Assembly (NCBI RefSeq): GCF_040436365.1
Contig: NZ_AP026369.1
Span: 62,001 to 126,000, forward strand
Origin: Hydrogenimonas sp. SS33
GTDB lineage: Bacteria > Campylobacterota > Campylobacteria > Campylobacterales > Hydrogenimonadaceae
Direction of reading: 5' to 3'
Length of the DNA: 64,000 bases
Below are positions 38,439 to 54,961 of the stretch, piece by piece. The position numbers and the translations under genes are program-made. Below the pieces are notes generated by a model. That model worked only from the letters and a program-made list of their open reading frames with translations, was not told the origin of the DNA and searched no databases. Each line of letters opens with the position of its first letter. Position 1 is the stretch's first letter.

Positions 38439-39443
38439 GTGAACGGAAGACTTTTGTCACTGCTGCTGTTGCTGCTTCCCCTCGCTCTTTTCGCGGAGGA
38501 CTCGGGGTACGAGCTGGGACGGGGCATCAGGCTAGGGGAGCTCCCCCTCTATGCGGGCGGCTACTTCTCTTTCGAATATGAGGATCGTTCCCATGACGGA
38601 AGGACCCTGAAACTCGACGATCTCTCCCTGATGCTTTACGGAGAAAGCGGCCGCTTCGGTTATCTGGCTGAGATGGAGGCCAACGACGTCTACCGGGAGG
38701 ATATCGGCGGGCCGGAGGCGGACGAGACGGTTCACGACCATTTTCATATCGAGCGTCTCTATCTCGACTATACGTTCAATGAAAACTACACGCTCAGGGG
38801 CGGGAAGTTCAACTCGCCCATCGGCCTGTGGAACCTGGTGCCGATCAATGTGCTTCGGGACACGACCTCCAATCCTGTGGTGACGGAAATACTCTTTCCC
38901 CGTTTTACGACGGGGCTGGATCTGAAATACAGCGACTTCCTCCATTCGAGAAGTATGGACCTCATGCTGCAGGCAACGAAGGATATGGACGCTCTCGTCA
39001 GCAGTGAAGTCTACAACAATGTCGATGCGGACCGCCATTTCGCCCTGGGCGTTTCCGGTGACGGGGATGCGTGGGGTTATCATCTAAGCGGTGGCTATTT
39101 CCGCCTTGTCGGTGAAAGCTCCTACTACTATCTCTGTGCGGCGGCCCAATATCTTTACGGGAAATGGAAAGTGCAGGGAGAGGTCGGCTCCCAGTTCGAC
39201 GAAGCGGGGACCACCGTACCCTATGCGGGGTATGCCCAGGCCCTCTACCGGATTCGGGAGGGGCATGAGGCGATCGTCAGGGTCGAGAGTTACGACAATC
39301 GCCGGGAGAGGGAGAGGGACACCTTCGGCGTTTTCGCCTACACCTACCGGCCGCGGTATCCCGTTGCCGTCAAAGGGGAGTATCAGTGGCACGCCGTTGG
39401 AAAAAACGACCGGTTTCTGCTCTCCTTTTCCATGCTTTTTTAG
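38439..39443 (+). CDS. Outer-membrane beta-barrel porin-like protein
   Basis: 334 residues from GTG 38439 (AAGGA eight bases upstream). A signal peptide (LLSLLLLLLPLALFAEDS) is followed by alternating strands (YAGGYFSFEYEDRS, LDDLSLMLYGE, IERLYLDYTFNENYTLRGGKFNSPIGLWNL) and a terminal strand ending LLSFSMLF. GGKFNSPIGLWN is typical of porins that bind carboxylates or inorganic anions. The substrate is unknown. It leads a run with a small PBP-like protein and a sensor kinase, so it may serve in the same response. Confidence 0.7.
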   Translation: MNGRLLSLLLLLLPLALFAEDSGYELGRGIRLGELPLYAGGYFSFEYEDRSHDGRTLKLDDLSLMLYGESGRFGYLAEMEANDVYREDIGGPEADETVHDHFHIERLYLDYTFNENYTLRGGKFNSPIGLWNLVPINVLRDTTSNPVVTEILFPRFTTGLDLKYSDFLHSRSMDLMLQATKDMDALVSSEVYNNVDADRHFALGVSGDGDAWGYHLSGGYFRLVGESSYYYLCAAAQYLYGKWKVQGEVGSQFDEAGTTVPYAGYAQALYRIREGHEAIVRVESYDNRRERERDTFGVFAYTYRPRYPVAVKGEYQWHAVGKNDRFLLSFSMLF

Positions 39444-39452
39444 GGAAAGCGT

Positions 39453-39866
39453 ATGCCAAGGTGGTTTCTCCTTTTGCTTCTTTTCGCGGTTTCGGTGGCG
39501 GCGGAAGAGCTGCTTGTCGTGACCAATCCCGCCAACGATATCGGCCCGCTCGATGCGGCGCAACTACGGCAGATCTACCTGGGGAAGCGCCGGTACTGGA
39601 AAACGTTGAAACTCTTCCCTATTAACCTGCCCCCTGCCAATCCGCTGAGAAAGAGGTTTGAAAGGGAGGTTTTGCATATGACCCCTTCGGCGCTGGATGC
39701 CTACTGGATGAAAGAGCACTACCTCGGGCATCGTCCTCCCTACCGGGTGGAGTCGGTCGAAAGTGTCATACGCTTCGTCAGGAAACTCAAAGGCGCCATC
39801 GGCTATATCCCAAAACACCGTCTGAGCGGGAATCTCAAAGTGATCTACCGGATCAAAGATGAGTGA
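39453..39866 (+). CDS. Small periplasmic PBP-like (PstS-type fold) protein
   Basis: 137 residues: a signal peptide (WFLLLLLFAVSVAA), then LLVVTNPANDIGPLDAAQLRQIYLG, and a C-terminal VRFVRKLKGAIGYIPKHR. It resembles a shortened phosphate-binding-protein domain. Such proteins are often encoded beside sensor kinases and may act as their ligand-binding partner. It overlaps the kinase gene by eight bases. Function inferred from context. Confidence 0.65.
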   Translation: MPRWFLLLLLFAVSVAAEELLVVTNPANDIGPLDAAQLRQIYLGKRRYWKTLKLFPINLPPANPLRKRFEREVLHMTPSALDAYWMKEHYLGHRPPYRVESVESVIRFVRKLKGAIGYIPKHRLSGNLKVIYRIKDE

Positions 39867-41940
39867 AGCATTCGAAAAAGTGCTGTCGCGTTCGCTGAAA
39901 AACAGGCTGCGCATCGCCCTTTTCATGATCGGTTTCATCCCTTTCATTTTCATACTTCTCTATCTGCACAATCTGGGCAGGCAGAAGGTGCTTGACGATA
40001 CCCTGGCCATTCAGCATGCCCAGATGCGTCTGGTGAAAAAGACGATCGAGCAGTATCTGCTTTCGCTGGAAAAGGAGATCCGGTTCCTCGCCTCCCTGGA
40101 GATGATGAACGATATCGTCGTGGACGATGTGGACAAGCGGATCGCCGGGCTGCTGGCCCAGAAAAAACGCGACCTGGGCGGGCGTGTCGACCTGTTCGCT
40201 CTCGACGGGGATGGGAAGGTGGTCGCCTCGACGGGCGGAAAGCCGAACCGACTTTTCCCCTACGCCGGGCAGATCCGCAGGGCGCTGCGGCAAAAAACCG
40301 GCCACTTCTACGAAGGAAAGTATCTCATTCTCTTCACACCCGTTGAGACCTCTTTGCAAAAAGAGAAGCCGCTTGGCTATCTGGTGCTGCGCTACGATCT
40401 GGAGGACCTGACGCGCTTTACGCTGAAACAGAAAGGGCTCCATACGCTCTTCTATTTTCCCGAAGAGGCGTTGAAAATCGAAGCATCCCCCCTGCCTGTG
40501 AGCGCGCATCCGGGCACCTGCCGAAAAGTGCGGATTACCGAAAAGTATCTTATTCTCTGCGAGCGTTTCGACGGCATCCTTTCCGCAGGCGTCATCGTCC
40601 ATGTCGTGGACAAAGCGATCGCCCTCTCCTTTCTCGACCAGTTCCTGCGGTTTGTCTGGACCCTGTTCGCTTTCGGTTTCCTCCTGATCGCCATCTTCTC
40701 CTGGTGGGTGGGGGAGCGCATTCTCAAACCGGTGGAAAAACTGACCGAGGCGACCCGGCGTATCATCCGAAGCAAAGACTACAGCACCCGCGTCGCCGTC
40801 GAATCCCGGGACGAGATATCCCGACTTGCACGCCACTTCAATGTGATGGTGGCGGAGACCGAACAGACGTTGAAGATGCTGGAAGAGGAGAGCCGGCAGC
40901 GTCTTATGCGGTTCGTGCAGCTCATCGCCTTCTTCAACAACATCATCCGTACCGAAGAGGAAAAGGCCTGTATCGAAACGGCCCTGGAGGAGTTGGGAAA
41001 ACTGATGCCCGGCAAACGCTTCTCTTTTACCCGTGCCAGGGTCGAAGAGGTGCCCGGGACGATCTGCCTGCCTCTTGATGTGAGGGATTTCGAAAACGAC
41101 AGCAGCGACCATTACGGAACCATTCTCCTTTACGACGAGAAGGAGGCGACGGATGCGCAGGCGCTCGAGTTCTACCGTTCCGTCTCCAGAATGATCATGC
41201 TGCAGCTTGACCAGATCCGGCTGGTCGCCGGGATCAAGGCGGCCTCTTCGGCGAAATCGACCTTCATCTCCCACATGTCCCACGAATTGCGAACGCCCCT
41301 GCACACGATCCTCAGCGCCACGCAGTATCTCATCGGCTACGAGGGGCTCTCACCCTCCCAGCAGGACAGAGTCTCGACCATCGAAGCGGCGGCGGGGCAT
41401 CTGCTGGGAATGATCAACGACATCCTGGACCTGGTCCAGATCGAGGCGGGAAAGGTGCCCGTCACCAAACAAGCCTATTCCTGCGGGGAGATCGAAAAGG
41501 TGGTCGAAGAGGCGCTCGAACTGATTGGGGTCCTGGCGGAAGAGAAAGGGTTGACACTGACATTCGAAAACCGCGTGGCGGAAGAGAGAGAGGTCGTGGC
41601 GGACAGCGACCTTCTCAGGCAGATTCTCATCAACCTTCTCTCCAATGCCGTCAAATTTACCGAAAAAGGCGGGGTGGATGTGGTCATGCACCTTTGCGGC
41701 GACCGGTGCTGCATCGACGTCTCGGATACCGGCACCGGGCTTTCGGCGAAAGAGATCGCAGCCCTTTTCGAGGAGTTTACCCGATTCAAAAAAACGGCGG
41801 AAGGCGGCCAGAAAAGCAGCGGGCTGGGGCTGGCCATCAGCCGGAAACTGGCCAGGCTCTTCGAAGGGGATATCGAACTAAAGAGCGAAGGCGTGGGCAA
41901 GGGGGTCACGGCGAGGCTCTATCTGACGCTGAATCCGTGA
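39859..41940 (+). CDS. Membrane sensor histidine kinase (periplasmic sensor, HAMP, HisKA, HATPase)
   Basis: 693 residues. Helix 1 (IALFMIGFIPFIFILLYL), a periplasmic domain of about 220 residues with a Cache-like GGRVDLFALDGDGKVVAST, helix 2 (FVWTLFAFGFLLIAIFSWWV), HAMP, a GAF-like linker, H-box HMSHELRTPLHTI, NLLSNAVKF, DVSDTGTGLS and GLGLAISRKL. No receiver domain. It probably pairs with the convergent regulator at 42121-42783, separated only by a repeat. The PBP-like protein upstream may deliver the signal. Confidence 0.85.
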   Translation: MSEAFEKVLSRSLKNRLRIALFMIGFIPFIFILLYLHNLGRQKVLDDTLAIQHAQMRLVKKTIEQYLLSLEKEIRFLASLEMMNDIVVDDVDKRIAGLLAQKKRDLGGRVDLFALDGDGKVVASTGGKPNRLFPYAGQIRRALRQKTGHFYEGKYLILFTPVETSLQKEKPLGYLVLRYDLEDLTRFTLKQKGLHTLFYFPEEALKIEASPLPVSAHPGTCRKVRITEKYLILCERFDGILSAGVIVHVVDKAIALSFLDQFLRFVWTLFAFGFLLIAIFSWWVGERILKPVEKLTEATRRIIRSKDYSTRVAVESRDEISRLARHFNVMVAETEQTLKMLEEESRQRLMRFVQLIAFFNNIIRTEEEKACIETALEELGKLMPGKRFSFTRARVEEVPGTICLPLDVRDFENDSSDHYGTILLYDEKEATDAQALEFYRSVSRMIMLQLDQIRLVAGIKAASSAKSTFISHMSHELRTPLHTILSATQYLIGYEGLSPSQQDRVSTIEAAAGHLLGMINDILDLVQIEAGKVPVTKQAYSCGEIEKVVEEALELIGVLAEEKGLTLTFENRVAEEREVVADSDLLRQILINLLSNAVKFTEKGGVDVVMHLCGDRCCIDVSDTGTGLSAKEIAALFEEFTRFKKTAEGGQKSSGLGLAISRKLARLFEGDIELKSEGVGKGVTARLYLTLNP

Positions 41941-41965
41941 CCGGGCGCGGAAACATGCTCCGCAT

Positions 41966-42118
41966 TATTACCCCTTTTTATGCCTCCCGAAGGGCAAAAA
42001 GATAAACCGATTGACTCTGCGTTAGAAACCTCCTACGTAGCTTCGGCTACGCCTGGGAACATCTGCCTTGATTGAATCGTTTCTCTTTTTGCTCATACTG
42101 TGTATAGTTTTGCAAGAA
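41966..42118 (+). repeat. Partial copy of the 271-bp MITE-like element
   Basis: About 150 bp nearly identical to 54811-54956, including a perfect C(TTCG)G hairpin (GTAGC-TTCG-GCTAC) and the right terminal repeat ending in TTTTGCAAGAA. The left terminal repeat is missing. It fills the gap between the convergent kinase and regulator genes and abuts the regulator's stop codon. Confidence 0.8.
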
Positions 42119-42120
42119 CT

Positions 42121-42783
42121 CTATTCTTTGATCGTGTAGCCTACGCCGCGGACCGTGACGATGAGATTTTTGAGCCCGATCTTTTTTCTGAGATTTTTGA
42201 TATGGACATCGAGAATGTTACTCTGTTTGAGGCTGTTGTATTCCCGGCAGAGATGGTCGTTGAGTTGGTAGCGGGTGAGGACGATATTTTTGTTTTTCAG
42301 CAGCAGCTCCAGCAGGTCGAATTCCGCCGGGCTGAGGGTGACGGTTTCGTCATGAACCTTCACTTCCCGGCTTTTGGTGTCGAGCGTCAGCGGCCCGCTA
42401 TGCAGCAGGGTACTCTTTTGGGGGGCTTCTCTTCGCAATAGAGCACGGATTCTGGCCAGAAGTTCGATGTTGGAGTAGGGTTTGCAAAGGTAGTCGTCGC
42501 CGCCGGCATCGAGTACCGTCACACGGTCGTCCACTTCGCTGTTTGCCGAAAGCATGAGCACGGGAGTGGCGATCTCCAGGGCACGCAGCTCTTTTAGCAG
42601 GGTCAGCCCGTCCCCGTCGGGCAGATTCCAGTCCAGTAGGATGAGATCGTACCGTTTTTCGTCGCAGCGACGCATCGCCTCGTGGTAGTCATAGGCCACG
42701 TCGCACCGGTACTTCTCCCGCTCCATCAGCTCCTTGAGCTGGTCCGCGACACTTTTTTCATCTTCCACGATCAGCAGGTACAC
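42121..42783 (-). CDS. OmpR-family response regulator
   Basis: 220 residues from GTG 42783 (AAGGGGG upstream); reading further upstream adds no domain. The receiver has EDE and D51 in LILLDWNLPDG, with lysine in YLCKPYSN. The winged helix ends IVTVRGVGYTIKE. It is convergent with the kinase at 39859 and divergent from the nine-haem cytochrome gene, which it may control. Direct repeats at 42921 are a candidate site. Confidence 0.85.
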   Translation of the reverse strand: MYLLIVEDEKSVADQLKELMEREKYRCDVAYDYHEAMRRCDEKRYDLILLDWNLPDGDGLTLLKELRALEIATPVLMLSANSEVDDRVTVLDAGGDDYLCKPYSNIELLARIRALLRREAPQKSTLLHSGPLTLDTKSREVKVHDETVTLSPAEFDLLELLLKNKNIVLTRYQLNDHLCREYNSLKQSNILDVHIKNLRKKIGLKNLIVTVRGVGYTIKE

Positions 42784-42814
42784 ATCGCTCCCCCTTGTTT
42801 TTAGAGGTACCCTA

Positions 42815-42942
42815 ATTATAAAGGCTTTCCCCTTAGGCTCAGATGTTTCAAAAAACCTATACTCTGGTACAGATCGGTCGGAATCCAGTTTTCTACGCAG
42901 TTTTTCACAGCAGTGCAATCTTCATGAAAAATTCATAAAGGA
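42815..42942. promoter_or_regulatory. Divergent control region of regulator and multihaem cytochrome
   Basis: Minus strand: TATAAT (42820-42815), about 32 bp before the regulator GTG. On the cytochrome side, an 11-bp-spaced direct repeat TTCATGAAAAA (42921-42931) and TTCATAAAGGA (42932-42942) has the spacing used by OmpR/PhoB proteins. Both assignments are by eye. The 214-bp region is clearly AT-richer than its surroundings. Confidence 0.4.
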
Positions 42943-42997
42943 CCTATAGGCTTCGTGGATAGGCATTTGCAAAAATTAAACTCCAAAGGAGGTTGTG

Positions 42998-45256
42998 ATG
43001 AGAGCGGTTGGATATCTGTGGATCGGCTTGCTGATTTTCTCTTCATTTATGGGATGTGGCGGAGGTTCATCCGGGTCATCGTCCATCAACACCGCTGTTT
43101 TCGTAGATTCACCGGTAGACGGATTGGCGTATGAACGAAGCGAAGGAGAAAAAGGGGTAACAAAAAACGGTGGGCAATTTCTCTTTTCCGACGGTGAAGT
43201 TGTCACGTTCAGGTTGGGAAACGTGACGCTTGGTTCAGTGCGGATGAACGGGAGTAAAAACATTGTGACTCCGATGGATCTTGTGACAAATGCAGCGGGA
43301 AAAGATGTGGATTTGGATGATCCCAGAGTGATTGCCATCGCAAGATTTCTGCTATCTGCAGATGAGGATGACGATGCTGACAACGGCATTCAAATTACGG
43401 ATTCTCTCAGGAAAAAACTGATGGAAAAACCAGCGATAGAACTTGATAAAAATGAGATATCCGATGCTGTCATCGCCGCCTATCTGGATCGTCCTGTAGA
43501 CAAAATCGTATCGAAAGACCGGGCGAAGCAACATCTATTGGAGGTACAAAACCGTATCTCCGACGGAAAATATGACCAATCGGACGGAGAAAGCGGGTAT
43601 CCGGAAACCGGGCAGGGTGGTTCATCCGGCACGGCAGGGAACGGCGGCGGAACTGGAAACGGCGGAGTCGGGGCCGTTTCGGGCGACTATACTCTTCTGG
43701 CCTGGAACGATTTGGGTATGCACTGCATGGACGGGAACGATTATTCCGTTTTTTCCATTCTCCCTCCCTACAACAACCTGACGGCCCAGTTGATCGCCAA
43801 AGGCGATAAACCCGAAATGGTTGAAAGAGGTGTCACATTGACCTATGAAGCAATACCATCCCTGAATGGAAAATTGAATACCCAAAGTGCCACAAAAACC
43901 AATTTTTGGGATTATGCCAAACTCCTTTACGGCAAAGCGCTCTCTCCCAATGTCGGACTGGCGGGTAAACGGTACGATCAGAATCCAAAAGGCCAGACAC
44001 TGGATTATGATACCGACCACCACTGGTGGAAAGCGGAGGGTATTCCCGTCACACCCTATAACGACGATGGCAGTTTCAACAGTTATCCGATGGTGAAAGT
44101 GACGGCGAGGGATACCGCAGGCAAGATCGTGGCGCAGACGACCACCGTGCTGCCGGTGAGTGACGAAATGGATTGCCGCAAGTGCCACGGCTCCGATAGC
44201 AATGTTTTGGAAGCCAAACCCGCGGCGGGATGGGTCCGACTGAACGATCCCGAAAAAGATTACAAATACAACATTCTCCGGTTGCATGACGAAAAAGAGC
44301 CTTCGGCTGTCGCAGATCATCTAAAATCTTTGAAATCGAAGGGGTGGGATTACAACAGTGCGGGTCTCGAAGCGACCGCAAAATCCGGGACTCCCATTCT
44401 CTGTGCGGCATGCCACCGGTCCAATGCTCTTCCGGGTTCGGGAGTCGACCTTATCAAACCGCTGACTAGGGTCATTCACAGCCATCATGCCGATGTTACC
44501 GATCCGTATTCGGGGATGGCGCTCGACAACGCTTTGAACCGAAATGCATGTTACGCATGCCATCCGGGCGCGACCACCCAGTGCCTGCGCGGAGCCATGG
44601 GGGGCGCGAAAGGGGGGAACGGTCAAAACATCATTCAGTGCCAGAACTGCCACGGTTCCATGCGTGCCGTCGGGGCCGCCAACCGGGAAGGATGGCTGGA
44701 TGAACCCAACTGTCAGGCCTGTCATCAGGAGGGGAAAAGATACAGGGACGGCATTGTGGATCAAAAAACAGGAACGCTTCGTCAGGCGATTGATCGACGC
44801 TTTGCCACCACCCCTGATACACCGTTACCCGGGAAAACTCTTTACCGGTTCAGCAGCGGTCACGGCGGTATGAAATGCGAAGCGTGCCACGGGTCCACCC
44901 ATGCGGTCTATCCTTCCGTCAAACCGGAAGACAATGTCCAAAGCATGGCACTGCAGGGACACAGCGGAACGATAGGGTCCTGTACGGTGTGCCATACCGT
45001 GATGCCGAATACGTCGGAAGGTGGACCGCACGGCATGCATTCCGTCGGTCAGGTATGGGTCGATGCGCATAAACACTATGCGGAAAGAAATTTGCAAAAA
45101 TGTGCCGCCTGTCATGGAGCGGATTATCGGGGATCTCCCCTCTCTGCCACGATGCAACCGAGAACCTTCGTCCTGGAACACCGTACAAAAACATTCGCCA
45201 TGAAACATCAGGTCAGCTGTTACGACTGCCACGACGGCCCGAACGGCGATGATTGA
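42998..45256 (+). CDS. Nine-haem c-type cytochrome lipoprotein
   Basis: 752 residues from ATG 42998 (AAAGGAGG upstream). A lipoprotein signal ends in FSSFMGC-GGG, so the mature protein is lipid-anchored. An N-terminal beta-rich domain (VFVDSPVDGLAYE, GGQFLFSDGEVVTFRLG) and a Gly/Ser linker precede the haem domain. Nine CxxCH sites: CRKCH, CAACH, CYACH, CQNCH, CQACH, CEACH, CTVCH, CAACH, CYDCH. It probably passes electrons to an extracellular or periplasmic acceptor. The gene is AT-richer than its neighbours, which may mean transfer. No conduit porin or inner-membrane partner is adjacent. Its role in metal or sulfur respiration is open. Confidence 0.85.
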   Translation: MRAVGYLWIGLLIFSSFMGCGGGSSGSSSINTAVFVDSPVDGLAYERSEGEKGVTKNGGQFLFSDGEVVTFRLGNVTLGSVRMNGSKNIVTPMDLVTNAAGKDVDLDDPRVIAIARFLLSADEDDDADNGIQITDSLRKKLMEKPAIELDKNEISDAVIAAYLDRPVDKIVSKDRAKQHLLEVQNRISDGKYDQSDGESGYPETGQGGSSGTAGNGGGTGNGGVGAVSGDYTLLAWNDLGMHCMDGNDYSVFSILPPYNNLTAQLIAKGDKPEMVERGVTLTYEAIPSLNGKLNTQSATKTNFWDYAKLLYGKALSPNVGLAGKRYDQNPKGQTLDYDTDHHWWKAEGIPVTPYNDDGSFNSYPMVKVTARDTAGKIVAQTTTVLPVSDEMDCRKCHGSDSNVLEAKPAAGWVRLNDPEKDYKYNILRLHDEKEPSAVADHLKSLKSKGWDYNSAGLEATAKSGTPILCAACHRSNALPGSGVDLIKPLTRVIHSHHADVTDPYSGMALDNALNRNACYACHPGATTQCLRGAMGGAKGGNGQNIIQCQNCHGSMRAVGAANREGWLDEPNCQACHQEGKRYRDGIVDQKTGTLRQAIDRRFATTPDTPLPGKTLYRFSSGHGGMKCEACHGSTHAVYPSVKPEDNVQSMALQGHSGTIGSCTVCHTVMPNTSEGGPHGMHSVGQVWVDAHKHYAERNLQKCAACHGADYRGSPLSATMQPRTFVLEHRTKTFAMKHQVSCYDCHDGPNGDD

Positions 45257-45331
45257 CCGTTTCCAGAGTGAAAAAATTTGGTGTTTTGATCATCTCGAAT
45301 GTAAAAGGAAAAGAAAAAATTGAAGAGGCCT

Positions 45332-46057
45332 ATGCCAACAGAATACGAACTGACCATCATCGTTCCCGTTTATAACGAAATCGAGAGCCTTCCCAGGCTG
45401 GGCAGGGTGCTGCGTGACTATCTGGACAGGGCGTCACGAAAAAGCTGTGTGCTTTTCGTCGACGACGGCTCCACCGACGGCAGCGGCAGCGCGATTCACG
45501 CCCTCTGCCGGGAAGAGCCGCGGTTTTTTTGCCTCTCCTTCCGGAAAAACCGGGGGCTGAGTACGGCGATCAAAGCGGGGATCGACCACTGCAAAACCCC
45601 GCTGCTGGGCTACATCGACGCCGACCTTCAGACGATGCCCGAAGATTTCGAGCGGCTGCTGCCTTACATCGACGAATACGACGCCGTCGTCGGCTACCGG
45701 GCCGAGCGCAAGGACAGCCTGAGCAAAAAGATCCAGTCGAAAATCGCCAACGCCGTGCGCCGCGCCATGATCGGTGACGGCATCATCGATACGGGGTGCC
45801 CGCTCAAACTCTTCCGCACCGACCTGTGCAAAAAAATCCCCTTCTTCGACGGCATGCACCGCTTCTGGGCGGCTCTGATCCTGCTGGAAGAGGGCCGTGT
45901 CAAACAGGTGCCCGTCCGCCACTTCGAGCGCACCGCCGGAAAATCGAAATTCAACTTTTTCAACCGCTCCCTCCGGCCGCTGCAGGATATGCTCGCTTTC
46001 CGGTGGATGAAAAGCCGACATATCCGCTATGTCATCGTCTCCGGGAGGCTGCCTTGA
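45332..46057 (+). CDS. GT2 polyprenyl-phosphate glycosyltransferase (ArnC/DPM1-like)
   Basis: 241 residues. GT-A motifs: TIIVPVYNEIESLPRL, FVDDGSTDGSG, the metal site GYIDADLQTMPED, and a conserved DTGCPLKLFR with FDGMHRFW. It would load a sugar onto a polyprenyl phosphate on the inner face of the membrane. ATG 45332 has GAGG close by; a TTG at 45320 is an alternative start. It overlaps the LAB_N gene (TTGA). The three-gene set with LAB_N and an ArnT-like transferase points to modification of lipid A or another envelope glycan. Confidence 0.85.
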   Translation: MPTEYELTIIVPVYNEIESLPRLGRVLRDYLDRASRKSCVLFVDDGSTDGSGSAIHALCREEPRFFCLSFRKNRGLSTAIKAGIDHCKTPLLGYIDADLQTMPEDFERLLPYIDEYDAVVGYRAERKDSLSKKIQSKIANAVRRAMIGDGIIDTGCPLKLFRTDLCKKIPFFDGMHRFWAALILLEEGRVKQVPVRHFERTAGKSKFNFFNRSLRPLQDMLAFRWMKSRHIRYVIVSGRLP

Positions 46058-46701
46058 GCACGCCCTGGTGGGTCTTTGGCGTCGGATTTGCAGCCCAGGG
46101 GCTCTTTTCGGCCCGGCTGCTGGTGCAATGGATCCATTCCGAACGGATGCGCCGTGTCATGACTCCGGAGCTCTTTTGGGAGTTGAGCCTGCTCGCCTCT
46201 TTTCTGATGTTTCTCTACGGATGGCTGAGGGACGATTTTGCCATCGTGCTGGGGCAGAGCATCGGCTATTTCATCTATATCCGCAACATGCAGCTTCAGC
46301 ACAGCTGGCAGCGCCTGCCCAAAGGCCTTCGGCTCTTCTTTCTGCTCTTTCCGCTGCTGGTGCTGGGATACGGTTTCAACAACGGCGATCTCGACACCCT
46401 CCGCTTCTTCCACAACCCGGACATCCCCCACTGGCTGCTGGTGTGGGGGAGTGCGGGGCAGGTGCTCTTCACCTTCCGCTTCGTCTACCAGTGGTTCTTT
46501 TCGGAGCGTGCACGCCGCTCCCATCTGCCGCTTGGGTTTTGGATCATCAGTCTCGCCGGGTCTTCGATGATCCTCCTCTACGCCGTTTTGCGCCGCGACC
46601 CCGTGCTCTTTCTGGGACAGATTTTCGGGTTTGTCGTCTATCTGAGAAATGTGCGGCTCCATTTTCTGGATCGGGAAAACCATGGCTGCATTAAGCATTG
46701 A
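46054..46701 (+). CDS. Tandem LAB_N-domain membrane protein
   Basis: 215 residues from TTG 46054 (GGGAGG upstream, overlapping the GT2 stop). It contains two copies of the small lipid-A-disaccharide-synthase N-terminal (LAB_N) domain: FSARLLVQWIHSERMRRVMTP and FTFRFVYQWFFSERARRSHLP, each with two or three helices. Such proteins accompany GT2 and ArnT-type genes and may move the lipid-linked sugar across the membrane. Role inferred from context. Confidence 0.8.
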   Translation: MSTPWWVFGVGFAAQGLFSARLLVQWIHSERMRRVMTPELFWELSLLASFLMFLYGWLRDDFAIVLGQSIGYFIYIRNMQLQHSWQRLPKGLRLFFLLFPLLVLGYGFNNGDLDTLRFFHNPDIPHWLLVWGSAGQVLFTFRFVYQWFFSERARRSHLPLGFWIISLAGSSMILLYAVLRRDPVLFLGQIFGFVVYLRNVRLHFLDRENHGCIKH

Positions 46702-48310
46702 CCGCAAAACGCTGCTTTTGCTGCTCTTCGCCGCTGTCGTATTGTTGATAGGGGCGGGCAGTTACGGGGTCATCGAAACCAGTGACGCCCGGTATGCCGA
46801 GATCGCCCGGGAGATGCTGCAAAGCCGCGACTGGCTCCACCCCTCTTTGCTTGGGATCCACCACTACCACAAACCGCCGCTGACCTACCAGATCACGGCG
46901 CTGGGGTATGGACTTTGGGGCATCAACCCCTTCGGTGCGCGCTTTTTCCTCCAGATGTCGGTGGTGTTGCAACTGCTGCTTATCTACCTGACCGCCCGGC
47001 GCCTGGGGCTGGATGCGCGCGTCGCCCGGTGGGCCGCGGCCGTCTACTTCTCCTTTCCCCTGGTACTCGCCTCCTCCCGTACCCTGACCACCGACTCTTT
47101 TCTGACCACCTTTGCTCTGGCAGCCGTCTACAGCTGGGTCGGTTATCGCCGGGAGGGGCGGGCGCGATGGCTCTATCTGCTCGCTCTGTGGCTCGGACTT
47201 GGCTTTCTGACCAAAGGGCCGGTTATTCTGATCGCTCCGGTGCTCTTCGCACTCTTCTGGCGCCCGGAGACCGCAGGCCGTGCCGCGCCCAGGTACCACA
47301 AACTTTTCGCCGCCGCTCTTTTCGTGCTGCTGTCTGCTTCCTGGTTCCTCTATCTGGCCCGCGAAAACCCCGCTTTCTGGAGCTATTTCATCGAGCGGCA
47401 GACCATCCAGCGCTTCGGAAGCAACGTGTTTCACCGCCATGAGCCCTTCTGGTACTACTGGCTCTACGCCCCGCTGGTCGGCCTGCCCTGGCTGGCGGCG
47501 CTGCCGTGGCTTTGGGCCCGGGCGGAGGCCGGGGGAGAAAAGAAGCTTCTTCGCGCCCTTCTGTTGGCCGGATTGGCGGGCATGCTCTTCTTCTCGCTCT
47601 CCTCTTCCAAACGCATCCTCTACATCCTCCCCCTCTTCGGATTCTTCGCATTGGCCGTTGCCATGCTGATCGACCGGCTGGGTGCGTCGGATGCCGAAAG
47701 GCTGGAGAGAGGTGTGAAAGCCTATGCCGTCGGTATAGCCCTCCTCTTTGCCGCCGCGCCGTGGCTGCCCCTGCCCGGGGTGCATCTTCCCGCCGTCGTC
47801 ACCCTTTACGCCCTGGGGGCGCTGCTTGCTCTGGCGGGGCTGGGAAGATGGAAGATCTTTTCCAAAAGCAGGGCGGTGCTTGCCGCGGTGATCGCCTCGA
47901 CCCTGTTGCTGCTGGCCGCGACAGCGACCTTGAGCCGCTCCCCCGAATCTTTCAAAATCGCCGACCCCGTCGCCCGATGGATTCGGGCCCGTCACCTGCA
48001 GGAAAGGACCGTCCTGGTCTACGACCGGCGCCTACCTTCTTTGGCTTTCACCCTCAAAAAGCCGATCGTATCGCTCTATGACTGCAGCCGGGACCTTGAC
48101 AGGGAAACGCGGTTCGAAAAAGACGAGAGATGGAGAGAAAACCTGTATAATCTCAAAGACCCGAAAGAGCGGAAGCGGCTGAAACGGGCGCTTTCAAACA
48201 CCGACTATCTGCTGGTTCTTTTTGCCAAAAAGCTGCCCGAAAACCGGCGATGGCTGATCGAAAAGCTCCCCCATGTCGGGAAAATCGGGCGCTGGACGGT
48301 CTATTACTGA
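46682..48310 (+). CDS. ArnT/PMT-type (GT83) lipid glycosyltransferase
   Basis: 542 residues from ATG 46682. A GT-C membrane enzyme with about twelve helices. The first periplasmic loop carries the catalytic pattern ETSDARYAEIAREML, with HKPPLTYQ following and GFLTKGP later. ArnT-type enzymes transfer a sugar from polyprenyl phosphate to lipid A or a protein. A C-terminal periplasmic domain is present. It overlaps the LAB_N gene by 20 bp. The sugar is unknown because no arn biosynthesis genes are here. Confidence 0.82.
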   Translation: MAALSIDRKTLLLLLFAAVVLLIGAGSYGVIETSDARYAEIAREMLQSRDWLHPSLLGIHHYHKPPLTYQITALGYGLWGINPFGARFFLQMSVVLQLLLIYLTARRLGLDARVARWAAAVYFSFPLVLASSRTLTTDSFLTTFALAAVYSWVGYRREGRARWLYLLALWLGLGFLTKGPVILIAPVLFALFWRPETAGRAAPRYHKLFAAALFVLLSASWFLYLARENPAFWSYFIERQTIQRFGSNVFHRHEPFWYYWLYAPLVGLPWLAALPWLWARAEAGGEKKLLRALLLAGLAGMLFFSLSSSKRILYILPLFGFFALAVAMLIDRLGASDAERLERGVKAYAVGIALLFAAAPWLPLPGVHLPAVVTLYALGALLALAGLGRWKIFSKSRAVLAAVIASTLLLLAATATLSRSPESFKIADPVARWIRARHLQERTVLVYDRRLPSLAFTLKKPIVSLYDCSRDLDRETRFEKDERWRENLYNLKDPKERKRLKRALSNTDYLLVLFAKKLPENRRWLIEKLPHVGKIGRWTVYY

Positions 48311-48312
48311 CT

Positions 48313-48431
48313 GATGTTACGCAAAGCTTGAGCAAAGTCCAAGCTTTGGCGGGGACTGGCCGTTCCCTGCACCCCCCTAAAGCTACGAAATCGTAGATTT
48401 CGAGAGGACGTTACGCCTTTTGCGTAATGTC
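48313..48431 (-). repeat. Multi-hairpin interspersed element, copy 4 (R4), inverted
   Basis: Reverse-strand copy nearly identical to R1 at 4195. It keeps the CTACGA/TCGTAG stem, GGGAAC/GTCCCC (one mismatch) and CAAAGCTTG/CAAGCTTTG. It starts two bases after the ArnT-like stop, but is oriented opposite to that gene. It ends inside the leader of the next operon. Confidence 0.85.
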
Positions 48432-48522
48432 TGTTATTGAATTTTTCGATCCACTCTTCACACAATCTTCATTTTCCTCCTCTAAACTTCAAACCATGAA
48501 AATCCACATTGAAAGGATGGTG

Positions 48523-49548
48523 ATGAAATACATTCCCCGCATCCCTCTGCCAACTTTCGCGTTTCTGATGCTCTTTTCCGCGGAATTCACCTACTACCTT
48601 CTGATTCTGCAAACAGGCATTGTGGAGTATCACCACTCCCTGCTGTCTGAGGTATGGATGGTGCCTGCCGGCGGGATGATCGGCATTCTTCTCTCCATAG
48701 GAGCCTATCCCCGGAGGCGGTGGCTGATGCCCTCTCTGCTTTTTGTGCAACTGCTTCTCTCTTTTTCCTACGCCTCCGCCAACGGATGGGAACTCTTCCT
48801 TCTGGGATTGATCAGCGGCCTGACGGCGCCGATGCTCATCGCGCTGGTGCCACGGCTCTGGGTCGTCGCCGTGGCGTTGGCGTTCTCCTATCTGTTCGGT
48901 ACCTGGGTATTCGACGTTCCGGCCATCGACAGAACCTCCATCGCCGTGTCCCTTTCCGCCGTCGCCCTCGGCGCGTCGTTTCTGGGCGATATGCGGCCCG
49001 CAAAGTGCGGGAGCGGCACGGTATCGCTTTACAGCATGGGCAACATCTTTCTCTGGCTGCTGCTCGATGCCGCACTTTTCGAAACCCTTTCGAGGGATGC
49101 GGTGATGCATCTGTGGGGCGAGGAGGGGTTTGCCTTTCCCATCATCCTCTTTCATCTCATCGGCCTTGCCGCCGCCTACGGCATGCGGTCGTACCGGCAT
49201 AACGACGCCCTGCTTCTGGGACTCTTCGCGTTCGCCTACGCCACCTACGCATCCGGCAGCCAGGCATGGCTATGTGTGGTCTACCCCTTCGTCATCTCCT
49301 ACTACAACGTCGTCATCATGGAAAAACTGATCCGCCTTCCCTACACGAAGGTCGCCATGGCCTCCCTCAGCCTCTGGGCGGCGTCCGGGCTGGGGCTTCT
49401 CATCGCCCTCTCCCACACCTTCGCCATCGCCTGGACGGTTCTGGGGCTGCTGTTTGTCAACTATATGGCCCAATCCACCGGATTCCGGGCGCTTTTTTCT
49501 TTGGGAAAAGGCTTTCCTCTCATCCCCGATAAAAGGAGTGCACTATGA
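48523..49548 (+). CDS. Polytopic membrane protein of unknown function
   Basis: 341 residues from ATG 48523 (AAAGGA upstream). About ten hydrophobic helices with short loops (LPTFAFLMLFSAEFTYYLLIL, GWELFLLGLISGLTAPMLIALV, NIFLWLLLDAALFETL). The shape recalls half of an MFS carrier, but I see no signature motif. It overlaps the YceI gene by four bases and leads the 48.5-54.7 kb operon. I do not recognise the family. Confidence 0.65.
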   Translation: MKYIPRIPLPTFAFLMLFSAEFTYYLLILQTGIVEYHHSLLSEVWMVPAGGMIGILLSIGAYPRRRWLMPSLLFVQLLLSFSYASANGWELFLLGLISGLTAPMLIALVPRLWVVAVALAFSYLFGTWVFDVPAIDRTSIAVSLSAVALGASFLGDMRPAKCGSGTVSLYSMGNIFLWLLLDAALFETLSRDAVMHLWGEEGFAFPIILFHLIGLAAAYGMRSYRHNDALLLGLFAFAYATYASGSQAWLCVVYPFVISYYNVVIMEKLIRLPYTKVAMASLSLWAASGLGLLIALSHTFAIAWTVLGLLFVNYMAQSTGFRALFSLGKGFPLIPDKRSAL

Positions 49549-50078
49549 AACGGATGATTTTCACGATACTGCTGGCGGCATCGGGCCTCTTCGCCGCTAA
49601 TCTCTCGGTCGAAAAGGGTGTCGTCAAGGCCCATACGGAGGTTTTCGGCGATTCGACGATCGACCCCGAAACCCGGGGGCTCACCTCCCGCCTGACAATG
49701 GCGGGTATGCCCGAAACGATCCAGGGAAGCGTCGACATTTCGATGACCGTTCTCAAAAGCGACAACGCCAAAAGGGACGAGCATATGATGGAGGCGATCG
49801 AAGCGGATCGTTTCCCCCGGGCGACCTACACGTTCGAAAAGGTGACGAAGAAGCGGGGCGACGGCTATGTCGTCGAAGGGGTATTGACGTTTCACGGCGT
49901 CAAAAGGCCGCTGAAGATCGACGCCAGGATCTTCAACGGTGCCCGGACCCTCTCCTTTGCGGGCCATTCCTCCTTCAACATGTCCGACTACGGCGTACAG
50001 CCGCCCAAACTCCTCTTTCTGACGGTGCGCGACCGTATCGACCTGGCCATCGACGTCACATTCAAAAAAGAGCGGTGA
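49545..50078 (+). CDS. YceI-family periplasmic lipid-binding protein
   Basis: 177 residues: signal peptide MKRMIFTILLAASGLFAANL, then a YceI lipocalin-like barrel (VFGDSTIDPETRGLTSRLTM, VDISMTVLKSDNAKRDEHM, YVVEGVLTFHGVKRPLKIDA). Family members bind polyprenyl or quinone-like lipids. It sits between the polytopic membrane protein and an ABC exporter, so it may carry a hydrophobic ligand for them. Confidence 0.85.
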   Translation: MKRMIFTILLAASGLFAANLSVEKGVVKAHTEVFGDSTIDPETRGLTSRLTMAGMPETIQGSVDISMTVLKSDNAKRDEHMMEAIEADRFPRATYTFEKVTKKRGDGYVVEGVLTFHGVKRPLKIDARIFNGARTLSFAGHSSFNMSDYGVQPPKLLFLTVRDRIDLAIDVTFKKER

Positions 50079-50085
50079 GAGTGGC

Positions 50086-51156
50086 ATGTTCAAATCTTTT
50101 TTCCGACACAAGACCAAAACGCTGCTGATCCTTCTCTCGGCGACCTCCGCCATCGCGTCGATCTTCATGATTACGGCGCTTGGAAACGGCATCATAGAAA
50201 TGTACGCCTCCATGCTCAAAACCGACGGCGACATCATCGTCATGCAAAAAGGGGTCGCCGATACCTTTTTCTCCGACGTCAACCGCTCCCTGATCGGCCC
50301 CATTTCCAAAATCGACAATGTCCGGTCGGCCCAGGGGGTCATCGTCGGGGCGGGGGCGATCGATTCTGTGCCGATCGCCGGGATCTACGGTGTGACGCGG
50401 AACCGTTTCCAAAACTACGCCCTTCGCAGCGGCCGCTACCCCAAAGAGAACGAGGCGATCGTCGGCGAGAGTATCGCCAATCTGCTGGAGGATCCCCGCG
50501 AGATTCACCTGATGGGCAAACCCTTCCGGGTTTCGGGCATCTACAAAAGCGACATCGGATTCGAAAACGGCGGGGTGGTCGTCAACATCGCCGATGCGGA
50601 AAAACTCTTCAACAAGAGTGCCTCTTTCCTGCTCGTCTCCCTTGAGGATCTGGGCAAAGGGGTCGATGACGTGATTGCGAAGATCCGAAAACTCGATGAC
50701 GATATCGAGGTGAAATCGACCAACGATTTCATCGACAATTACAACCAGTTCAAAATCATCCGGATCTCCAGCGGCGTGATCGCCTCCATCTCCTTTTTCA
50801 TGGGCTTTCTGGCGATCGTCAGCCTCATGAGCATGATGATCAACGACCGGCGGTACGAATTCGGCATCAAACGGGCGATGGGCATCTCCCAGGCGAGGAT
50901 CGTTGGGGAGATCGTCGTGGAGGTGGCGGCGTTGACACTGGTTGCGTTCGCGATGGCCTACGGCATCAGCCTGCTCCTGCTGGAGTGGCTGCAGCACATC
51001 CCGAAATTCCAGGGCTACCTGAGCGGCGAGATCGACCTGCGGCTCTTTCTCGAACTGCTGGCCGGCTCCCTCGCCATGGCCCTGACGGGGGCGCTCATAC
51101 CCGCCTTTCTCGCGGCGCGGGTTGATCCGATCATTCTCATCAACAGGGGGCAGTAG
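50086..51156 (+). CDS. FtsX/MacB-like ABC transporter permease
   Basis: 356 residues. One N-terminal helix (TLLILLSATSAIASIFMITAL), a periplasmic MacB-PCD-like domain, then three helices (GVIASISFFMGFLAIVSLMSMMI, VAALTLVAFAMAYGISLLLL, LAGSLAMALTGALIPAFLAA). YEFGIKRAMGIS is a standard FtsX coupling segment. It pairs with the ATPase that overlaps its stop. Such transporters move lipoproteins or act as mechanotransmitters rather than importing. Confidence 0.85.
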   Translation: MFKSFFRHKTKTLLILLSATSAIASIFMITALGNGIIEMYASMLKTDGDIIVMQKGVADTFFSDVNRSLIGPISKIDNVRSAQGVIVGAGAIDSVPIAGIYGVTRNRFQNYALRSGRYPKENEAIVGESIANLLEDPREIHLMGKPFRVSGIYKSDIGFENGGVVVNIADAEKLFNKSASFLLVSLEDLGKGVDDVIAKIRKLDDDIEVKSTNDFIDNYNQFKIIRISSGVIASISFFMGFLAIVSLMSMMINDRRYEFGIKRAMGISQARIVGEIVVEVAALTLVAFAMAYGISLLLLEWLQHIPKFQGYLSGEIDLRLFLELLAGSLAMALTGALIPAFLAARVDPIILINRGQ

Positions 51157-51767
51157 TGTTACGACTCGAACATGTTTCCCACCGGTACGAAAACGAGCCG
51201 GTGCTGCACGATATCTCCCTCTCCTTCGAGCCGGGGAGTTTCAACATCGTCACGGGCGAAAGCGGCAGCGGCAAGTCGACCCTTCTTTCCATCGTCTCCA
51301 CCCTTCTGAAGCCGTCGGAGGGGAAGATCTACTTCGACGGCGTGGAGAGAGGCGAGATCGGAGATATCGACCGCTTCAGGAACCGAAACATCGGTTTTGT
51401 CTTCCAGTTTCACTATCTCATCGGCCATTTGAGCGTGTACGAAAACGTCGCCCTCGTCACGAAAAAGGGGCGCAAGGCGATCATGGTGCTGCTGGAGCGT
51501 CTCGGCATCGCCGAACTGGCGGGGAAACATCCCGACCAGATCTCCGGCGGGCAGCGCCAGCGCGCCGCCATCGCAAGGGCGCTGATCAACGAGCCGCGCT
51601 ATCTCTTCGCCGACGAACCCACGGGCAATCTCGACTCGAAAAACTCGGAAATGGTCTTCGACCTGCTTCGGCAGATCGACGCGACCCGGATCGTCGTGAC
51701 CCACGACAGAAACATTCTGCGGCCTACGGACCGTCTCATCGAACTCAAGGATGGCAAACTATGTTGA
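51156..51767 (+). CDS. LolD/MacB-like ABC transporter ATPase
   Basis: 203 residues from GTG 51156, which shares a base with the permease stop (TAGTG; AGGGGG upstream). Walker A GESGSGKST, Q-loop region FVFQFHYLIGHLSVYEN, signature ISGGQRQR, Walker B YLFADEPTGNLD and H-loop VVTHD are all intact. It energises the FtsX-like permease. It overlaps the next gene by seven bases. Confidence 0.9.
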   Translation: MLRLEHVSHRYENEPVLHDISLSFEPGSFNIVTGESGSGKSTLLSIVSTLLKPSEGKIYFDGVERGEIGDIDRFRNRNIGFVFQFHYLIGHLSVYENVALVTKKGRKAIMVLLERLGIAELAGKHPDQISGGQRQRAAIARALINEPRYLFADEPTGNLDSKNSEMVFDLLRQIDATRIVVTHDRNILRPTDRLIELKDGKLC

Positions 51768-53332
51768 AAACCCGCCTCGCACCCCATATCCGGTTCTCCT
51801 ACCTCTTTCTCGTGCTGGCAGCCTTTTTCGGCCTTCTTTACGCGCTGCAACTGCTGGGTATCGGTACCGATCTGATACGTCCGGACCTGGCGCGGTCGCT
51901 GCACATTTCACTAATGCTCTACGGATTTATCCCGCTGATGATGACCCTGCTTCCCTTCGCTCTTTTTGACAGGGACGGGGTGATGGACGAGAAGGCGGCA
52001 GCCTATCTGGAGCGTTTTCTGTGGGTCTGGTACACCTTTCTCGTATTCATGATTTTCTCCCTTCTTTCGGGTGTGCGGAGGGGACTGCCCTTTTACGACT
52101 TTCCCTACGAGCTCAACTTTCTTCTGGCCCTGGCCGGGCTCTTCTACATCGCGGCCATTTTCAAAAGCATCGCCAATTATGAAAGAAAACCGCTCTGGGT
52201 CAAAGTCTCCCTGGTGCTGGTCGTCGTCAGCCCCTTTGCTTTGCTTGTGCTGATGAATCCGAAATACGGGCAGGTGGAAAAGATGCTGATGGGGCCCCAC
52301 GGCGACAACACCCTGGGGATGAGTTTCGCCCTGGTCGCCGTCTACTACCTGGCGGTGAAACTCGCTTCGCCCAAACGCACCTTCCGAACCCGGTGGCACA
52401 TTCTGTGGATCATCCCCCTGGTGTGCTATCTTGGCAGCGTCCTCTACCGCTCCTTCGTCGGTTCCCTCTCCTACGATGCCGAGTGGTTTCTGCAGTACCT
52501 GACGCTGCTCTATATTCCGCTCCTTGCTCTCTGGTGGAAAGATGCCGGGCTCTCGCTGAAAAAGCATCTGACGCTTTTCATCTCCATGGCCGCCTTTCTC
52601 TTTGCGGATGTGGAGGGGAATATTCTCTTCATCCCCCATCTGCGGGAACTCTTTCACCGAAACGACCTGGTGGTAGGCCACGCCCATGTGGCGGTGGGGA
52701 TCGGGCTGCTCTTTCTCGCCCTCTCCATCGTCGAACCCTTCGTCAGGATCTCCGCGAAACGGGCGCTCTATCTGACGGCAATGCTGCTGCTGATGGCGCT
52801 GGTGCTCACCGTCAGCGGCTTCGCCCAGGCGGGATTTTTGCCCATGCAAATCGAGGCGATGTGGGCGCTTCGCGCACTCTTCGGCCTGCTCTTCATCGGT
52901 GGGCTTCTCTATGGTCCCAAGCTCGCCTTCCCCGCATTCATCAGGCGACTGCGGTGGGTGGACGGGTACAATCTCGCCGGTTTTCTCTCCGACGGCCTCG
53001 GCGGACTCATGCTGGTGCTCTTCGGCGGGTCGCTCTACCATTTCCTCGGGCAGGGGTATGCACCCGGCTACCAGCAGATCGTCTTCGGTTTCGTCATGGG
53101 GGTGGGGCTCATCCATCTACTGGGCATGCTGATGCCGGCGTACGCCTATGCCATGGCGGAGGCGACGGTGATGGTTAGGATATTGACGGCGGCCGGCTTT
53201 TTCGCCCTCTACAAGGCGGGGGTACTGGGGTGGATCGCCCTGGCCGTCGCCCTGGTGGACCTCGCTTTCGTACTGGCCTACCTGCTGGGGGTGAAAGAGC
53301 GGGCGAAACGGTTGGAAGCGGAGGCCGCATGA
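51761..53332 (+). CDS. Haem-copper-oxidase subunit I-like membrane protein (CcoN/NorB-like), degenerate
   Basis: 523 residues from ATG 51761, with about thirteen helices. Histidines sit where CcoN/NorB haem ligands are expected: RSLHISLMLYGF (H48), GPHGDNTLGMSFALVAVYYLA (H180, resembling the helix with the first CuB ligand) and VVGHAHVAVG (H307, H309), which recalls the GHVHSGALG segment of CcoN. The HH pair that completes CuB in oxidases and nitric oxide reductases is not found in the following helix, so terminal oxidase activity is doubtful. It may be a haem-binding quinone protein. No CcoO/P- or NorC-like gene is next to it. NnrS is an alternative relative. Confidence 0.5.
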   Translation: MLKTRLAPHIRFSYLFLVLAAFFGLLYALQLLGIGTDLIRPDLARSLHISLMLYGFIPLMMTLLPFALFDRDGVMDEKAAAYLERFLWVWYTFLVFMIFSLLSGVRRGLPFYDFPYELNFLLALAGLFYIAAIFKSIANYERKPLWVKVSLVLVVVSPFALLVLMNPKYGQVEKMLMGPHGDNTLGMSFALVAVYYLAVKLASPKRTFRTRWHILWIIPLVCYLGSVLYRSFVGSLSYDAEWFLQYLTLLYIPLLALWWKDAGLSLKKHLTLFISMAAFLFADVEGNILFIPHLRELFHRNDLVVGHAHVAVGIGLLFLALSIVEPFVRISAKRALYLTAMLLLMALVLTVSGFAQAGFLPMQIEAMWALRALFGLLFIGGLLYGPKLAFPAFIRRLRWVDGYNLAGFLSDGLGGLMLVLFGGSLYHFLGQGYAPGYQQIVFGFVMGVGLIHLLGMLMPAYAYAMAEATVMVRILTAAGFFALYKAGVLGWIALAVALVDLAFVLAYLLGVKERAKRLEAEAA

Positions 53333-53784
53333 AAAAGGTTCTGCCTGCCCTGCTGCTTCTGGCGGCCGGCCTCTTCGGGGAGATCCGCGTCGGAGATAGC
53401 TTTCCCAAGGTGGCGCTGCCGGACCAGTTCGGAAAGGTTCGGAAAGTGACATCCAAAGACAAAATGGTGCTGATCGCGTTCGAGAAAAAGCTCTTTCTCG
53501 CCATGAACCGGGAGTTGAAACAGGAGAAAGAGGATGTTTTGAAGGCGCATTCCGCGAAGGTGATCGCCGATATCAGCGGTATGCCCGCCTTTATCGCGAA
53601 GATGTTCGCGCTGCCGAAGATGCGCACCTACCCCTTTGGGGTCCTGCTCATACGCGATGGTTTGGGAAAACGTTTCGATAGACGAAAAGGGAAGATCACA
53701 CTCTACACCCTGCAGCATCGGAAGGTGCGCAGTATCCGCTTCCTCACACCCGAAGAAGTGGGTACAATACTCCAAAAACCATGA
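53329..53784 (+). CDS. Cysteine-free thioredoxin-fold periplasmic protein
   Basis: 151 residues from ATG 53329 (ATGA overlap). A signal peptide (VLPALLLLAAGLFGEI) is followed by VGDSFPKVALPDQFGKVRKV, which looks like the start of an AhpC/TlpA-type fold. There is no cysteine anywhere, so it is not a redox thioredoxin. It may be a scaffold or ligand-binding protein for the neighbouring membrane proteins. It overlaps the MBL gene by four bases. Confidence 0.6.
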   Translation: MKKVLPALLLLAAGLFGEIRVGDSFPKVALPDQFGKVRKVTSKDKMVLIAFEKKLFLAMNRELKQEKEDVLKAHSAKVIADISGMPAFIAKMFALPKMRTYPFGVLLIRDGLGKRFDRRKGKITLYTLQHRKVRSIRFLTPEEVGTILQKP

Positions 53785-54689
53785 AGCGATTTCACAACGG
53801 AAAGTTTACCGGCAAATACGATACCTCGGTCCATGTGGGGTTTCCCCAGATCCTTCGGTGGAAACTCTCTCGCCGACCGGGACGGAGGGAGGCGGGCAGG
53901 CCGCTGCGGACGGTCGACATGTCCGACAGGCTGGGAATTGGCGACGATTTTCTCTGCTGGCTCTCCCACGCCTCCTTTCTGCTGCAACTGAATGGAAAAC
54001 GCCTCCTCCTCGACCCGGTCTTCGGAGACATTCCCTTCTACAGACGGCTCAACCCGGCTCCCTACACCCCCGAACAACTGGGAAAGATCGACTATCTTCT
54101 CCTTTCCCACACCCACTACGACCATGTCGACGCCCCCTCCGTTTCCAAAGTTGCCGAAAGTGATCCGTTGGCGGTGGTGCCGCTACACATGTCCAGGCTC
54201 TTGAAAAAGATCGCCCCCGGCCTGCGCTGCGTCGAACTCGACTGGTACGAAACTTTTGGAGAGGAGGGAGTGAAGATCACTCTGGTACCCGCCAGGCACT
54301 GGGGAAGGCGCGGGCTCTTCGACAAAAACCGTGCATTGTGGGGCGGCTACATTCTGCAAACGGCGGGAAAAACCATCTATTTCGCCGGAGATACGGCGGC
54401 GGGTGACCATTTCGAGCAGATCGGCAGGCGTTTCGATATCGACCTGGCGCTGCTGCCCATCGGCGCCTACGAGCCGGCATTCATCATGAAACACAACCAT
54501 CTCAATCCCGAAGAGGCCTTCGCAGCCTTCCGGCAGTTGGGGGCGAAAAAGATGCTCCCCATGCACTACGGCACCTTCCGGCTCAGCGACGAGCCTCCGG
54601 GAGAGCCGCTGGAGCGGATCGAAAAGATCGCCGACGCCCATCCGGGCACCGTGGAGATTGTCAGACCCGGCGAAATCATTCTTTTGTAA
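53781..54689 (+). CDS. Metallo-beta-lactamase-fold hydrolase (UlaG/NAPE-PLD-like)
   Basis: 302 residues. The dinuclear metal site motif is LLSHTHYDHVD, followed by PARHWGRRG, FAGDTAAGDHF and PMHYGTFRLSDEPP, the pattern of UlaG/NAPE-PLD-like hydrolases. NAPE-PLD acts on phospholipids, which would fit an operon with YceI and a lipid-type ABC exporter, but the substrate is not known. It is the last gene of the operon and is followed by a MITE-like element. Confidence 0.78.
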   Translation: MKRFHNGKFTGKYDTSVHVGFPQILRWKLSRRPGRREAGRPLRTVDMSDRLGIGDDFLCWLSHASFLLQLNGKRLLLDPVFGDIPFYRRLNPAPYTPEQLGKIDYLLLSHTHYDHVDAPSVSKVAESDPLAVVPLHMSRLLKKIAPGLRCVELDWYETFGEEGVKITLVPARHWGRRGLFDKNRALWGGYILQTAGKTIYFAGDTAAGDHFEQIGRRFDIDLALLPIGAYEPAFIMKHNHLNPEEAFAAFRQLGAKKMLPMHYGTFRLSDEPPGEPLERIEKIADAHPGTVEIVRPGEIILL

Positions 54690-54690
54690 T

Positions 54691-54961
54691 AGACTTCTTG
54701 CAGAACCATACGCAGATATGAGAGGCATAAAAAGGGGTAAGATCGTGAAAAACAAATTTTTCGGCGTAGCCAAAGCTACGTTGAAAACATTTTTTTATGC
54801 GAGATTGCCCCTTTCTATGCCTCCCGTAGGGCAAAAAGATAGACCGATTGACTCTGCGTTGGAAACCTCCTACGTAGCTTCGGCTACGCCTGGGAACATC
54901 TGCCTTGATTGAATCGTTTCTCTTTTTGCTCATACTGTGTATAGTTTTGCAAGAAGTCTAA
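54691..54961. mobile_element. MITE-like element with approximately 31-bp terminal inverted repeats (full copy)
   Basis: The left end begins AGACTTCTTGCAGAACC and the right end is its near-complement (GTTTTGCAAGAAGTCT), with pairing continuing to GATATGAG/CTCATACT. TA at both edges could be a target duplication. Inside, GAGGCAT...AGGGG (from 54721) pairs with the stretch at 54812-54832, and a C(TTCG)G hairpin lies near 54878. No transposase. An 84-residue ORF inside is not convincing. The partial copy is at 41966. Confidence 0.75.

Follow-up and report, generated by a model that had tools for sequence, protein, structure and literature searches.

A conserved Campylobacterota operon joins a YceI lipocalin, ABC and MFS-fold transport proteins and a hydrolase to an oxidase-fold protein without copper ligands

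Introduction

The window analysed here is a 64,000-nucleotide stretch of the genome of Hydrogenimonas sp. SS33 (2.25 Mb, single contig). Seven co-directional genes, g1 to g7, occupy window positions 48523–54689 on the + strand, and what they do together is the question that this locus raises. An earlier note on this DNA had taken them for a run of overlapping or near-contiguous envelope genes that might handle a lipid-like or quinone-like molecule in connection with a haem or redox membrane protein, and had recognised no described system of this composition. Our literature searches likewise returned no published description of the gene set and no described homologous operon.

Results

Seven genes form one unit conserved across Campylobacterota

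All seven open reading frames are in place on the + strand as the earlier note had them, with overlaps of 4, 1, 7, 4 and 4 bp and one gap of 7 bp (between g2 and g3). The parts are as follows:

g1, 48523–49548 (+): 12-helix MFS-fold membrane protein, belonging to no sequence family
g2, 49545–50078 (+): YceI-family periplasmic lipocalin with a hydrophobic, signal-like N-terminal segment
g3, 50086–51156 (+): FtsX/MacB-type ABC permease subunit
g4, 51156–51767 (+): ABC ATPase of the LolD/FtsE type, starting with GTG
g5, 51761–53332 (+): membrane protein of haem-copper-oxidase (HCO) fold, CcoN/NorB-like; CuB ligands absent, haem ligands H48, H307 and H309 kept
g6, 53329–53784 (+): small Cys-free protein, predicted to be exported; putatively thioredoxin-like by the earlier note's account
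g7, 53781–54689 (+): NAPE-PLD-like hydrolase of metallo-beta-lactamase (MBL) fold with a complete HxHxDH metal site

The check that the earlier note had named, conservation of the gene neighbourhood, came out in its favour: the set is kept together across many Campylobacterota genera. In about 80 loci of Campylobacterota, we found that the FtsX, ABC, oxidase-like, MFS-like and YceI genes keep together, their order and strand conserved. Because the same set recurs in Sulfurovum, Sulfurimonas, Sulfuricurvum, Sulfurospirillum and Arcobacteraceae, the arrangement is not due to chance, and the seven genes are a real unit. Relatives most often show the order g3-g4-g5-g1-g2(-g6) (FtsX-ABC-HCO-MFS-YceI, g6 standing at either end), and the order g1-g2-g3-g4-g5-g6-g7 is of the Sulfurovum type; gene order is thus not uniform among relatives. 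Across 84 loci, g5 was present in 84, g1 in 81, g3 in 79, g4 in 78, g2 in 77 and g6, beside the operon, in 62, with many of the missing genes falling at contig ends. At no fewer than one locus (L012) the FtsX-ABC-HCO-MFS genes are kept and YceI is not adjacent, so that YceI may be accessory.

We searched for the operon's genes at several depths. A search with g5 matched 6 of 60 relatives (2 of 18 in its own genus), and a g5 profile search of the class matched 61 of 397 genomes, one of these marginally. An independent profile search with g1 recovered exactly the same 60 genomes that were clear for g5, and g1 adjoins g5 in every genome that has both genes on one contig. Scanning the genomes of 84,980 species with g5 yielded 105 confirmed relatives; the 80 listed among them are Campylobacterota by their record titles, two of which give only general names. 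On a g5 tree the nearest relatives are Sulfurovum records. Decaying copies also occur, with a transposase gene within g1 in one genome (G036) and stops within g5 in another (G410). A plasmid-borne element was considered and rejected, as g5 had no plasmid match.

g5 keeps the haem ligands of an oxidase fold and has lost the copper site

The haem-copper superfamily is known for using a haem-metal pair to reduce O2 or NO. By sequence, g5 reaches 24.4 bits against Pfam COX1, under the curated cut-off of 34.8, and its sequence profile matched no solved structure. It is the fold of its AlphaFold2 model (mean pLDDT 88.6) that bears out the earlier description of g5 as haem-copper-oxidase-like, with Z scores of 23.6–25.5 over some 350–380 residues against cbb3 CcoN and NorB (4xyd, Z 25.5; 9g6b, Z 24.8) and a Foldseek match to cbb3 at E 7e-7.

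We aligned g5 to the CcoN of its own genome. In this alignment H48 falls at the haem ligand of TM2, H307/H309 match the TM10 pair (GHAH opposite GHVH) and D182 takes the place of the TM6 CuB histidine (GDN opposite GHN). HHalign gives the comparison a low probability (19%, E 0.0012), the template being a single sequence; fold and motifs agree. H48, H180, D182, H307 and H309 are invariant in the g5 alignment (83/83 sequences), the segment GPHGDNTLG is strictly conserved, the TM6 CuB histidine is aspartate (D182) in all 83, and no TM7 histidine pair occurs in columns 219–245 of any of them. The haem-ligand sites are therefore kept and the CuB ligands are lost. With the former retained and the TM6 and TM7 histidines gone, two haems may bind, their occupancy being expected from the conserved ligands, and a binuclear centre would not form.

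Since the CuB histidines are gone, g5 is expected to lack both oxidase and NO reductase activity, and having looked for the CuB/FeB site and found it absent, we classify g5 as a divergent relative within the HCO superfamily. The same genome encodes three further COX1-family proteins, which by motif resemble CcoN (cbb3), NorB (cNOR) and gNOR; because these are encoded separately, g5 is none of them. An assignment of g5 to gNOR or cNOR was rejected on this ground and because g5 is without the His pair. Family scans found no CcoO/CcoP or NorC partner subunits among the seven genes, and the operon holds no matched electron partner for g5. What the earlier note had called a haem or redox membrane protein is thus an HCO relative with haem ligands, but the loss of its copper site rules out a reading as respiratory oxidase.

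Lipocalin, transport and hydrolase parts

The other parts were assessed by family scans and by comparison with solved structures. g2 falls clearly in the YceI lipid-binding family named for it before (Pfam YceI, 76 bits against a cut-off of 23.7; 5.1e-21) and has solved relatives in 1y0g, 7bwl, 2fgs, 5ixg and 3hpe. No gene of the seven matched cytochrome b561 (PF01292) in the Pfam scan, and no PsrA-type reductase is encoded in the operon. The genome's second YceI was rejected as a lipocalin-b561 pair because it does not adjoin a b561 gene. g6 is indeed free of Cys and has a hydrophobic, signal-like N-terminus; it gave no Pfam match above chance (30 members) and no match to solved structures by sequence profile.

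g1, first described only as a polytopic membrane protein, can be refined to an MFS fold from its AlphaFold2 model (pLDDT 92), which matches MFS transporters with Z 22.9–25.9 over about 300 residues. Neither Pfam, MFS models included (39 g1 members), nor a sequence-profile search of solved structures gave a match. Its invariant residues are Q30-T31-G32, D182, E187, R191, H211 and Y261-N262. g3 matches Pfam FtsX (6.1e-15), MacB_PCD (5e-14) and MacB-type structures, and g4 matches Pfam ABC_tran (4.4e-32), with NCBIfam LolD/FtsE under equivalog cut-offs. The equivalog scores of the pair all lie under their cut-offs (lolCE, 32.2 against 362; MacB, 23.0 against 966; LolD, 183.9 against 307.75).

g7 is a Pfam metallo-beta-lactamase whose best solved match is human NAPE-PLD (4qn9, E 6.7e-42, residues 3–282), in agreement with the earlier note, and its metal-ligand residues H110, H112, D114, H115, H173, D204 and H262 are conserved at 97% or more. 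In about half of the relatives g7 is replaced by an unrelated calcineurin-type phosphoesterase near YaeI/LpxG. Of 84 loci, 41 carry the phosphoesterase, 28 the MBL, none both and 15 neither. This alternation suggests a functional exchange; as it amounts to only about two changes on the g5 tree, it could also be lineage history.

Genomic neighbourhood

Directly upstream of the operon, at window 45320–48310 (+), lie genes for a glycosyltransferase 2, a protein with two copies of LAB_N and a PMT/ArnT-like protein, likely a lipid A sugar-modification set. Window 42995–45256 (+) encodes a protein of 753 residues in which nine CXXCH motifs occur along with MtrC/MtrF-like and cytochrome c7 domains, and which is likely a surface multihaem cytochrome; nine-CXXCH proteins also lie near the operon in three other loci (L014, L020, L078). 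Window 38439–42918 holds genes for a porin-like protein, a 137-residue binding-protein-like protein, a histidine kinase and a divergent response regulator, a module that in L008 immediately precedes the operon and in L071 lies within it. In five Arcobacteraceae loci (L027, L028, L033, L043, L047) a cytochrome b561 gene stands beside a response regulator/kinase pair, together with genes that presumably encode a DUF1924-like c and a dihaem c cytochrome. Some neighbouring two-component genes may belong instead to this dihaem c/b561 cluster. CopRS regulation was rejected as proof of a copper role, since the neighbouring two-component genes are of different families from locus to locus. Short palindromic repeats (GTAGCTTCGGCTACG and others) occur above chance in the window, in the intergenic flanks at 48313–48500 and 54690–54900.

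Candidate functions of the operon

The operon probably serves to protect or handle lipids or quinones of the envelope. YceI, the MacB/LolD-type ABC pair and the NAPE-PLD-like hydrolase all point to the lipid- or quinone-like molecule that the earlier note had suggested. The closest characterised parallel is LcoA-BcnA of Burkholderia: lcoA (a dihaem cytochrome b561) adjoins or is fused to bcnA, the gene of a YceI lipocalin; other YceI proteins have been found with ubiquinone-8 or similar isoprenoids, lcoA and bcnA mutants both show raised lipid peroxidation, and the LcoA cytochrome has been proposed to re-reduce lipocalin-bound ubiquinone in the detoxification of lipid peroxyl radicals (PMC9113575).

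By analogy, our tentative best explanation is that a menaquinol-fed dihaem cytochrome keeps a YceI-bound quinone or lipid reduced, with the ABC and MFS-fold proteins moving that lipid. Here g5, as a CuB-less dihaem protein of HCO fold, would take electrons from the menaquinol pool and deliver them at the periplasmic face. There the g2 lipocalin would carry a quinone or oxidised lipid to be reduced or recycled. The g3-g4 pair and g1 would load, extract or flip the lipid, and g7 (in other lineages, the metallophosphoesterase) would be a lipid phosphodiesterase for the removal or processing of damaged lipid head groups. We infer quinol as the donor, the ligand of YceI, the direction of electron and lipid flow and the protective role. 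The strict co-occurrence of g1 and g5 and the roughly 80 conserved loci argue for one module; the NAPE-PLD-like g7 and the YaeI/LpxG-like phosphoesterase, both lipid-type phosphodiester enzymes, count for the lipid side, and redox genes near some loci (the nine-CXXCH cytochrome; dihaem c and b561 in Arcobacteraceae) for the redox-lipid reading. That g5 represents an HCO-fold branch without O2 or NO chemistry, now a dedicated electron donor from quinol to a lipid or lipocalin with its own ABC and MFS-fold transporters, we regard as a rather doubtful extension.

About as likely as this redox-lipid reading, and just as tentative, is a transport-centred one, in which the ABC, MFS-fold and YceI proteins move a lipid (e.g., an N-acylated phospholipid or a lipid A part) in lipid trafficking or envelope remodelling, the hydrolase trims it, and g5 is a structural or haem-sensing subunit that gates transport in response to redox state or to the binding of a gas. 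Transport or lipid proteins make up four of the seven parts, lipid-A-type genes (GT2, LAB_N, PMT) immediately precede the operon in the window, and many loci have two-component genes next to the operon, L071 having them within it. However, the strict haem ligands and GPHGDNTLG segment in 83 sequences argue for a catalytic or electron-transfer role of g5, and in most loci the lipid-A genes do not adjoin the operon.

A module for defence against, or sensing of, NO or hydroxylamine, with g5 as an NO-binding haem protein, appears improbable. NorB is a fold neighbour of g5, and in a sister genome (G016) a cytochrome P460 gene is inserted between g1 and g2 (L008:5324-5833). Few operon genomes nevertheless carry P460, and G016 alone has it linked to the operon, for which reason it was rejected as a general operon part. 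nirS is absent from 36 of 54 operon genomes and commoner in operon-free relatives (13/17), a comparison that used a convenience sample and is confounded by descent, and the genome already has other COX1-family proteins, whose motifs suggest cNOR, gNOR and cbb3. The lack of nirS in 36/54 carriers and the linkage of P460 at one locus only make a nitrogen-oxide role less likely, and a denitrification module looks unlikely with nirS missing from most carriers.

Cytochrome cbb3 oxidases are widespread in the class Campylobacteria. That the operon encodes factors for assembling or maturing a respiratory complex, by inserting haem or copper, is the least probable explanation: the g5 fold resembles a subunit possibly helped and Arcobacteraceae have a response regulator–histidine kinase pair of CopRS/HprRS type, but the operon occurs in just 60/397 genomes of the class, own-genus relatives are mostly without it, and neither g6 nor YceI has Cys or Met metal motifs.

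If the redox-lipid explanation is true, a strictly conserved and widespread HCO branch that has no metal ligands and is linked with a lipocalin and lipid enzymes would put the fold to a new use, and Campylobacterota would gain a counterpart of the LcoA-BcnA lipid-protection system. The hosts are sulfur-cycling Campylobacterota of many genera, and operon-bearing isolates with complete genomes (e.g., Sulfurospirillum) make the readings testable.

Comparison with known systems

Compared with MacB, LolCDE and FtsEX, g3-g4 share the FtsX permease with a MacB-like periplasmic core and the LolD-like ATPase; here, there is one permease, no fused ATPase, and MFS-fold and haem partners. g7 resembles NAPE-PLD in sequence over 280 residues with intact metal ligands, whereas it is bacterial, shows no signal peptide and is swapped for a metallophosphoesterase in other loci.

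g5 shares its fold and three haem-ligand His positions (TM2, TM10) with CcoN (cbb3) and NorB (cNOR), but has Asp for the TM6 His, no TM7 His pair, and an operon without CcoO/CcoP or NorC. The gNOR of Sulfurimonas and Sulfurovum is likewise of the HCO family with a TM6 Asp where His is usual; the own-genome gNOR (G000:C1:1015672, by motifs) keeps the TM7 His pair in WSHHLLGD, whereas g5 is without it and is a separate, distant protein.

Closest in composition to our redox-lipid explanation is LcoA-BcnA of Burkholderia (also yceJ-yceI of E. coli): in both systems a YceI lipocalin is encoded alongside a membrane cytochrome for which two b-type haems are expected. Because the linked haem protein is of HCO fold and not b561, we do not assign the operon to LcoA-BcnA; it has no PsrA and adds an ABC pair, an MFS-fold protein, a phosphodiesterase and g6.
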